Positions 48,880 through 51,164 of a DNA stretch of 64,000 bases are shown piece by piece. The stretch lies in NCBI RefSeq assembly GCF_000426185.1, contig NZ_AUEW01000001.1:744001-808000 (forward strand). Reading direction: 5' to 3'. The position numbers were made by a program, and so were the translations under genes. Under the pieces are notes generated by a model. That model saw only the letters and a list, made by a program, of their open reading frames with translations. It was not told the DNA's origin and ran no database searches. How positions within the stretch are numbered: the first letter of the stretch is position 1; the number at the start of each line of letters is the position of its first letter. The stretch is from Cellulomonas sp. URHD0024 (GTDB lineage Bacteria; Actinomycetota; Actinomycetes; Actinomycetales; Cellulomonadaceae).

Positions 48880-49515
48880 TCAGACCGGCACGACGGCCGG
48901 CTCCGCAGCCGCGGCGTCGGCCGTCGGCACGGTGAACCGCGGCAGGAACACGTGCACGAGCGGTCCGATGGCCACCGCGTACAGCACCGTGGCAGGCCCG
49001 AAGGTGCCCCCGAGGATCCATCCGGCGGAGATCACGACGACCTCGATCCCGGTGCGGACGAGCCGGATCGACCAGCCCGTCCGCGCGACCAGACCCGTCA
49101 TCAGCCCGTCGCGCGGACCCGGCCCGAGGCGGGCGCCGACGTAGAGACCGGTCGCCAGGCCGTTGAGGACGATCCCGGCGACCGCCAGCGCGCCGCGCGC
49201 ACCGAGGGGCAGCGGGTCGGGCAGCCGGTCGAGAACGCCGAGGAACGGGTCGACGAGGATGCTGATCACCGCGACGTTGGCCACCGTCCCGATACCCGGG
49301 CGCTGACGCAGCGGGATCCAGCAGGTCAGGACGACGACGCCGGTCAGCAGCGTCACCATCCCGAACGACAGACCCGTGTGCGCGACGATCCCCTGGGTCA
49401 GCACGTCCCACGGCATGGAGCCCAGCCCGGCGTGCACGACCATCGCGATCGACGCCGCGTAGAGCACGAGCCCACCGAGGAGCTGCCCGGACCTGCGGGT
49501 CACCGGAAGTTCCAT
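48880..49515 (-). CDS. YczE/YyaS/YitT family membrane protein
   Basis: 211 aa, about five membrane helices. LGSMPWDVLTQGIVAHTGLSFGMVTLLTGVVVL and GLYVGARLGPGPRDGLMTGLVARTGWSIRLVRTGIEV are hallmark YczE segments. Likely a small-molecule transporter or permease; members often lie beside MocR regulators. ATG 49515 overlaps the last codons of a 46-aa upstream ORF; GTG 49524 is in frame too. Divergent from the MocR-type gene across the promoter at 49641-49703. Confidence 0.85.
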   Translation of the reverse strand: MELPVTRRSGQLLGGLVLYAASIAMVVHAGLGSMPWDVLTQGIVAHTGLSFGMVTLLTGVVVLTCWIPLRQRPGIGTVANVAVISILVDPFLGVLDRLPDPLPLGARGALAVAGIVLNGLATGLYVGARLGPGPRDGLMTGLVARTGWSIRLVRTGIEVVVISAGWILGGTFGPATVLYAVAIGPLVHVFLPRFTVPTADAAAAEPAVVPV

Positions 49516-49640
49516 TCGGTCCACCCGTACCGCGGCTCACGCTGCGGTCGAGGACGACGCCGACGCCGCATCGCCGTCGTGGCGGTCACGATCGACGCTG
49601 TCAGCACGAGTATCAGAATAATCGATAGCCACATGTCCAT
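49500..49640 (-). CDS. Small single-pass membrane protein (46 aa)
   Basis: MDMWLSIILILVLTASIVTA then [16 protein letters not shown] and an aromatic tail ending WTEWNFR. One membrane helix with a strongly basic C-terminal side, so N-out/C-in is expected. It overlaps the YczE start by 16 nt in a different frame, which suggests coupled translation. It starts 63 nt from the divergent mocR ATG. Shorter than typical gene-calling limits. I do not know the protein; it may be a subunit or leader of YczE. Confidence 0.5.
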   Translation of the reverse strand: MDMWLSIILILVLTASIVTATTAMRRRRRPRPQREPRYGWTEWNFR

Positions 49641-49679
49641 GGTCGCCAAGCCTGCGCGGCGATTGGCCTTCCTGGACAT

Positions 49680-49701
49680 AGCCACTTGTGCAAGAGTGGC
49701 T
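49680..49701. promoter_or_regulatory. Palindromic operator overlapping the mocR start region
   Basis: AGCCACT (49680-49686) and AGTGGCT (49695-49701), 8 nt apart, perfect arms. The right arm ends 2 nt before the mocR ATG at 49704 and covers the -10-like AAGAGT (49692-49697), so a bound protein would block mocR transcription and could affect the divergent microORF/YczE promoter. Confidence 0.55.
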
Positions 49702-49703
49702 CC

Positions 49704-51164
49704 ATGACGATGACCGACCTGCCGGCCGACCGCCGGATCAGCGGCCGGCGGCTGCAGTCCGTGCTCGGTGCCTGGCAGCGTCCCGGCCCGGCCTACATCG
49801 CTCTCGCGGACGCGCTGCGTGCGGCGATCCTGTCGGGCTCGGTTCCCCTCAGCACCCGCCTGCCGAGCGAACGCGAGCTCGCTGAGGCCGCCGGGATCTC
49901 CCGGACCACCACCACGGCCACGTACGGACTGCTTCGCGACGAGGGCTACCTGGCCAGTCGGCGCGGCTCCGGCACCGTCACCACGCTGCCGAGCGATCGC
50001 GGCGCACGAGGGACGTTCCCGAAGCCCCACGACGACGAGCCGGGCGTCGTGGACCTGTCGATGGCGGCTCCGTCGGCCCCGTCCGTGCTGCACAGCGCCT
50101 ACCTCGCGGCACTCGACGCACTCCCCCGTCACCTGACGGGGACCGGGTACGCGCCCCTCGGGCTGACCGTCCTGCGCGAGGCCATCGCCGCGTGGTACTC
50201 GGTCCGCGGCACACCCACGACGCCGGACCAGATCCTGGTGACCACGGGTGCGCAGCAGGCGATCCACCTCCTCGTGCACGCCCACGCCGGCCCGGGTGAC
50301 CGTGTCGTCGTCGAGCACCCCACCTACCCGCACGCGATCGAGGTGGTCCGGGGCGCCGGCGCGCGTCCGGTGCCCGTGCCGTCCGGGGAGCGTGGGCTCG
50401 ACATCGACCTGCTCGAGTCGACCATCCGCCAGGTCGCCCCCCGGCTCGTGTACCTGGTGCCCGACCATCGCAACCCGACGGGCACCTCGCTCGACGACGA
50501 CGAGCGCGCCGCCGTGCGCGCGTTGGCTCGGCGGTACCGCACGACCGTCGTCGGCGACGAGGTCCTGACCGAGCTGACGATCGACGGGCCCGCACCCTCG
50601 TCGTTCGCCGGCGACGGGACCGGGTCGGCGTTCGTCGTCTCTATCGGGTCGGCGTCCAAGTCGTTCTGGGGCGGCTTGCGGGTCGGCTGGGTCCGCGGTC
50701 ACCCGGACCTCGTGGCCCGGCTGGCCTCGGCGCGTGCGACCGTCGACATCGGCACGCCGCTGCTCGAGCAGCTCGTGGTCGCCGAGCTTCTCGCGCGGCC
50801 CGTGGACCTGCTCGACCGCCGACGCGCCGTCCTGCGCGAGCACCGCGACCTCCTGGCCGGCCTGCTGCTCGACCGGCTGCCCTCCTGGCACTTCGAGCTC
50901 CCGCGCGGCGGCCTGTCGCTGTGGGTCGATCTGGGCGCACCGGCCTCCAGCGCACTCGCCGCGATCTCGGTCCGGCACGGCGTGCGGATCGTGCCCGGGA
51001 CGGCCTTCGGCGTGGACGGCAGCTTCGAGCAGAACCTGCGGGTCCCGTTCACGACGTCCCATGACGAGCTGCGCCGCGGCGTCGCGGCGCTCGCGGACGC
51101 GTGGGCGAACCTCGGCATCACCGAGCCGGGCCGCGGTGCGGCCCGCGTGCACGCCATGGTCTAG
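49704..51164 (+). CDS. MocR-type regulator (GntR winged helix fused to a class I aminotransferase)
   Basis: 486 aa. N-terminal GntR helix-turn-helix: LADALRAAILSGSVPLSTRLPSERELAEAAGISRTTTTATYGLLRDEGYLASRRGSGTV. The C-terminal aminotransferase fold keeps PLP residues: TTGAQQAIHLLVHAHAGPGD, PDHRNPTGTSL, DEV and SIGSASKSFWGGLRVGW (Lys binds PLP). MocR proteins sense PLP or an aminated ligand and control nearby genes. It is divergent from YczE and a small membrane protein, a pairing I recall in other actinobacteria. A palindrome covers its start region, suggesting autoregulation. Confidence 0.92.
   Translation: MTMTDLPADRRISGRRLQSVLGAWQRPGPAYIALADALRAAILSGSVPLSTRLPSERELAEAAGISRTTTTATYGLLRDEGYLASRRGSGTVTTLPSDRGARGTFPKPHDDEPGVVDLSMAAPSAPSVLHSAYLAALDALPRHLTGTGYAPLGLTVLREAIAAWYSVRGTPTTPDQILVTTGAQQAIHLLVHAHAGPGDRVVVEHPTYPHAIEVVRGAGARPVPVPSGERGLDIDLLESTIRQVAPRLVYLVPDHRNPTGTSLDDDERAAVRALARRYRTTVVGDEVLTELTIDGPAPSSFAGDGTGSAFVVSIGSASKSFWGGLRVGWVRGHPDLVARLASARATVDIGTPLLEQLVVAELLARPVDLLDRRRAVLREHRDLLAGLLLDRLPSWHFELPRGGLSLWVDLGAPASSALAAISVRHGVRIVPGTAFGVDGSFEQNLRVPFTTSHDELRRGVAALADAWANLGITEPGRGAARVHAMV

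Follow-up and report, generated by a model that had tools for sequence, protein, structure and literature searches.

Does a perfect inverted repeat that ends just short of a MocR-type regulator gene serve that regulator as an operator, and if so, is the repeat the whole site? The locus that raises this question lies in a 64,000-nucleotide stretch of the Cellulomonas sp. URHD0024 genome, which we refer to as the window; coordinates of the features are positions in it (Table 1).

The palindrome and its two neighbours

Read directly from the window, positions 49680–49701 are AGCCACT-TGTGCAAG-AGTGGCT, two exact arms around an 8-nt spacer. The hexamer AAGAGT overlaps the right arm, and CC (49702–49703) fills the 2 nt between the end of the palindrome and the ATG of yczR (mocR). 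The original prediction had described a perfect palindrome that lies over a −10-like AAGAGT and stops 2 nt short of the mocR ATG, and each of these details was borne out. We regard the ATG as well placed because the start codon has an equal offset to the operator in 47 of 55 Cellulomonas loci and because the start codon nearest the operator is in frame with the YczR protein in 54 of the 55.

As a bare pattern, the palindrome is no rarer than chance. The window contains 15 perfect 7-8-7 palindromes, five first-order Markov simulations gave 9, 11, 15, 14 and 13, and about 0.006 are expected per 30 nt. The palindrome matters because it is conserved, not because it is rare. A search for the same arms elsewhere, which had been suggested as a check, found the exact palindrome at a single location in its own genome.

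The divergent neighbours yczR and yczE both score above their curated NCBIfam cut-offs. The regulator combines a GntR-type wHTH domain (PF00392, 46.1 bits, cut-off 27) with an aminotransferase I/II domain (PF00155, 117.7 bits, cut-off 19.7); against the PdxR model it reaches 208.7 bits, below the 320 cut-off. Similarly, YczE reaches 14.6 bits against Pfam YitT_membrane, below the 24.3 cut-off. The best named matches of the window YczR are mostly from Cellulomonas, the closest being Cellulomonas sp. URHE0023 at 91% identity. The published marks of the YczR group are Val-Asp-Glu and Thr at the active-site floor and a Glu preceding the conserved wHTH Arg (PMC4944035). Compared by eye, without aligning to the published figure, the window protein has Glu56-Arg57, which is invariant in alignment A1, and its floor reads Val283-Gly284-Asp285-Glu286-Val287, in which Asp-Glu agrees and the Val and Thr positions differ.

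Table 1. Positions of genes, boxes and promoter elements at the yczR–yczE locus, with the counts that describe them; positions refer to the window except in the last row.
Feature	Position	Strand	Remarks
yczR, MocR-type regulator (P0001)	49704..51164	+	NF052290.2 MocR_like_YczR, 593.1 bits (cut-off 487.4)
yczE, membrane protein (P0002)	48880..49524	-	NF052291.1 membrane_YczE, 238.3 bits (cut-off 205)
Small ORF (P0003)	49500..49640	-	46 aa with a single hydrophobic stretch; probably opens the yczE operon
Box 1, TTGGCC	49663..49668	+	Third half-site; GG 55/55, C 52/55, T 47/55
Box 2, AGCCACT on + (AGTGGCT on -)	49680..49686	-	Left arm of palindrome; CCA 55/55
Box 3, AGTGGCT	49695..49701	+	Right arm of palindrome; GTGG 55/55; overlaps predicted yczR -10
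Predicted yczR -10, AAGAGT (form NANAGT)	49692..49697	+	A49693 55/55, T49697 55/55
Candidate yczR -35, TTCCTG	49669..49674	+	Weak; 17-nt spacer; first two positions T 42/55, T 45/55
Predicted yczR transcription start	49704	+	A of ATG, putatively leaderless; T at -7 and A at -11 in 47/47 start-aligned loci
Candidate -10 of yczE operon, CAGGCT	49649..49654	-	Predicted; on + strand T49653 41/55, A49649 38/55
Second small ORF, other Cellulomonas genomes	L289 1492-1650; G018:C7:35310; G024:C7:243864; G044:C1:1332641; G051:C1:1019526		

Box conservation within and outside Cellulomonas

We compared 60 Cellulomonas genomes, evenly drawn from a larger group, of which 55 gave a yczR locus with upstream sequence for alignment. 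In one genome (G029), yczR is split across two contigs; it stands outside the 55 loci and inside the 52 genomes with a site, described below. Only weak yczR matches were found in four (G004, G032, G047 and G053, the last 61% complete).

The core of the palindrome, CCA-N12-TGG, occupies the operator position in all 55 yczR loci, and the invariant columns of the alignment are A49678, C49682, C49683, A49684, A49693, G49696, T49697, G49698 and G49699. Upstream, 46 of the 50 columns between 49612 and 49661 carry less than 0.5 bit. Between that stretch and the palindrome, GG at 49665–49666 is also invariant (55/55) and sits inside TGGCC or near variants. This GG belongs to a further half-site, box 1, so that the boxes run forward-reverse-forward at near-helical spacing, with the TGG of box 1 and that of box 3 in shared orientation 33 bp apart. 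The sole other frequent spacer, N18, occurs in 30 of the 55 loci. The palindrome thus appears to be boxes 2 and 3 of a predicted three-box operator, which is very probably YczR's own. The original prediction had taken the palindrome as the whole site; its sequence was exact, but it comprises two of the three boxes, and the one at 49663–49668 was missed.

Two further candidates in the same alignment were rejected. A direct repeat, ATAGCCAC(A/T)TGT, at 49625 and 49678 (53 bp apart) was considered as a spaced operator, but columns 49625–49639 carry at most 0.27 bit, and in both the window and L003 the left copy codes for the Met-x-Met-Trp with which the small ORF begins. The other candidate was a fourth box, AGTGG at the yczE −10 (minus strand; for example in L007 and L009), which was seen by eye in few loci only and is not genus-wide.

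Outside the genus, the box pair is kept in 132 of 139 YczR loci (116 with N12, 15 with N11, 1 with N13) and absent in 7; these loci are not independent events, because they are related and some genomes contribute two or three of them. The 139 are the 144 loci above the family cut-off from the order and class searches, after removal of L062, L064 and L066, which belong to the same genus, and of L075 and L091, which are truncated by contig ends. The last match in a 240-nt zone was taken as the pair, with spacers tried in the order 12, 11, 13, 10, 14, and some calls may be due to chance: a shuffled 120-nt zone yields 3.5 to 4.6 matches per spacer among 139 loci. When the 110 nt upstream were considered, 115 of 139 loci had the N12 pair; mononucleotide shuffles averaged 4.6, and a control zone gave 2 of 137. 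Other spacers also exceeded the shuffles, N18 most often (46/139), then N17 (35) and N4 (30); we take these to be by-products of other conserved bases. Conservation upstream of orthologous mocR genes, on which the original prediction had staked its MocR-type operator at an autoregulatory position, was thus found both inside and outside the genus and supports that proposal.

Box 1 is more variable than the pair. Its TGG lies at the exact Cellulomonas distance from CCA in 72 of the 132 pair-bearing loci and not in the other 60, and in 35 of the 132, TGG[CAT] is found at none of seven distances tried. Thirteen loci have TGG[CAT] only 27 nt before CCA, 9 nt farther away, near one helical turn. These 13 fall within L167–L189, mostly in family f37, and by eye many of them carry a further GTGG about 22 nt upstream, a four-box layout that resembles what Milano et al. 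report for Streptomycetaceae (PMC4944035).

A separate set of named loci (L250–L281) has the pair in 31 of 32, one of the 32 being named Cellulomonas. Two of these come from Symbiopectobacterium, a gammaproteobacterium (L253, L254), and carry the pair with the three-box geometry seen in Cellulomonas; their YczR proteins are 48% and 46% identical to that of the window. In Actinomycetospora (L264, L280, L281), extra AGTGGCAG-like repeats can be seen by eye downstream of the usual boxes, forming a denser multi-box array.

We also asked how often the pair accompanies yczE. The pair is lacking in 5 of 33 loci where no yczE was detected versus 2 of 106 where yczE is present. In 28 of the 139 loci the pair is present and tblastn with the window protein detected no yczE in an upstream stretch of mostly 1000–1500 nt, so that yczE is perhaps not the target at every locus.

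Promoters and proposed regulation

Although no box includes A49693, this base is invariant, and together with T49697 it supplies both key positions of a NANNNT −10. In 47 of 55 loci, a NANAGT stands six nt before the start codon of yczR. For comparison, 73% of primary starts in M. tuberculosis have a TANNNT −10 (PMC3898074). These features suggest that the yczR promoter is probably leaderless. On the yczE side, aligning the loci on the start codon gave only A at −11 in 34 of 55 and T at −7 in 30 of 55; the promoter columns there are much less conserved than on the yczR side, and the −35 elements are weak. The palindrome lies near −42 and −57 relative to the predicted start of the yczE operon.

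The explanation that we hold with high confidence is a three-box YczR operator that governs both yczR and the divergent yczE operon. YczR, the product of the gene downstream, would bind the three boxes. Once bound, box 3 would cover the −10 end and abut the start site of the leaderless yczR promoter, turning yczR off; autorepression through box 3 is very likely because this box overlaps the predicted −10. Box 1 would fall between the predicted −10 and −35 of yczE, with box 2 bordering that promoter on its upstream side, and because of this arrangement the shared regulator is likely to control yczE as well, by repression or activation, most simply as a repressor. Repression by YczR could then be released or re-set by a ligand of the PLP-type aminotransferase-like domain. 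The original prediction had the palindrome repress mocR and the YczE operon alike; it does cover the mocR promoter, but the candidate yczE promoter contains box 1, and the palindrome lies upstream of it.

A sharper form of this explanation, compatible with it, seems to us possible, though less likely than not. Here YczR on the direct pair, boxes 1 and 3, would shut both promoters, and a ligand or PLP state favouring the inverted pair, boxes 2 and 3, would free or activate yczE while yczR stays off. Boxes 1 and 3, at 33 bp, are separated by roughly three turns of the helix, and box 2 would lie near −42 of the predicted yczE start. In addition, apo-PdxR favours direct repeats and PLP-PdxR inverted ones, and PdxR activates pdxST while repressing pdxR (PMC5320631). 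However, the case is one of analogy, and the yczE start on which it draws is predicted from sequence. An extended version seems rather unlikely as a whole: the three-box operator would stand between two leaderless promoters, and the choice of box pair (1 and 3 direct, 2 and 3 inverted) would decide between silencing and expression of a yczE operon that opens with a microprotein spanning the membrane once, yczR being off in both states.

Since binding of YczR at this site is itself a prediction, the boxes could instead be the operator of another regulator acting at the yczR locus. We consider this improbable, because the composite site is found only beside yczR. With up to two mismatches, it has exactly one match in 52 of the 60 genomes, each adjoining yczR when coordinates are compared, and none in the four of the 60 that lack a yczR orthologue. 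Four yczR-bearing genomes (G007, G012, G045, G058) fall below the two-mismatch cut, and a reversed control pattern had no matches in the 60 genomes. In the genome of the window, allowing three mismatches returns the yczR-side site only. Together, these counts suggest that YczR in Cellulomonas has a single target site per genome.

That the palindrome acts as an RNA hairpin or terminator, not as a protein site, is very improbable. Its arms are complementary, as such a structure needs, but a leaderless yczR start would leave them outside the yczR mRNA, they are held by base identity, CCA and GTGG being unchanged in all 55 loci, and no T-run follows the palindrome on the plus strand. A chance palindrome in a GC-rich promoter, which the count of 7-8-7 palindromes in the window would allow, is refuted by the core in all 55 genus loci and the pair in 132 of 139 others, and we give it practically no weight.

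What began as a palindrome at chance level is thus a well-supported putative operator whose extent has been corrected to three boxes. As a short operator with a single site, it would make a convenient reporter for finding the YczR ligand, which is useful because no ligand has yet been assigned to this regulator and YczE itself is scarcely characterised (PMC4944035).

Related operators and the small ORF

The YczR group was named, and its divergent yczE partner noted, by Milano et al. 2016 (PMC4944035). For YczR of Actinobacteria, those authors predicted the motif GGCCA-N12-TGGCC, accompanied by further direct repeats: one more in both Mycobacteriaceae and Streptomycetaceae, and in the latter family a fourth as well; according to their Table 1, the YczR regulogs are PdxR3 of RegPrecise. 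The window shares with their operator the regulator group, the divergent yczE, the CCA-N12-TGG core and the extra box repeat. It differs in its arms, AGCCA-N12-TGGCT, by one outer base per arm. Their third box is shown for Mycobacteriaceae and Streptomycetaceae, whereas here it occurs in Cellulomonas at fixed spacing, and the available portion of that paper mentions neither a small ORF nor a box that overlaps a leaderless −10. The window site fits as one more member of an already predicted YczR control system.

Alternating three-box operators were described in 85 MocR regulons, with a common TGG/TGT core, by Suvorova and Rodionov 2016 (PMC5320631). The likeness extends to the forward-reverse-forward order, the TGG core and a box distance near whole turns; the main text does not name YczE, and by the abstract the groups with assigned functions are mostly those for PLP, GABA, taurine and ectoine. 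Similarly, PdxR of Bacillus clausii and Corynebacterium glutamicum represses pdxR and has repeats of both kinds, direct and inverted, between pdxR and pdxST, and for GabR of Bacillus subtilis an inverted box has been proposed between the direct repeats (PMC5320631). Their targets differ from that of YczR, and PdxR is an activator of its partner operon (PMC5320631). EnuR is another MocR repressor, with two predicted operators overlapping the −10 and −35 of the target promoter, but its consensus is ATTGT-N6-ACAAT, not AGTGG, and its target is ectoine uptake and catabolism (PMC8739950). A full-text literature search, with subscription papers mostly outside its coverage, found no YczR binding study.

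The yczE operon of the window probably begins with a small ORF. By a filter-based count, ORFs of 43–80 aa with a hydrophobic stretch lie on the yczE side of the operator in 34 of the 55 genus loci (L002–L056), and yczE was detected behind 33 of the 34. A DGLGH motif is present in 21 of the 34 and absent from the window copy, which matches the profile at 3.8e-12, itself being part of that profile. In 21 pairs at 70% or higher nucleotide identity, differences are most numerous at the third codon position (326 versus 221 and 191), and codon differences are synonymous in 192 cases versus 339 others. Taken together, there is moderate support for the small ORF being coding. A family search of its members found no family matching more than 3 of 19 at E ≤0.1; the best single E values were 0.002, for DUF3311 (Pfam), and 0.032 (NCBIfam).

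The profile search also matched a second small ORF of like kind, elsewhere in each of the five Cellulomonas genomes given to it (E 1.2e-7 to 4e-11). In the genome of the window the next match reached only 0.017, and 15 other genomes had nothing better than 6e-4. In L289, this second small ORF is, by eye, divergent to an AraC/GlxA-like regulator.
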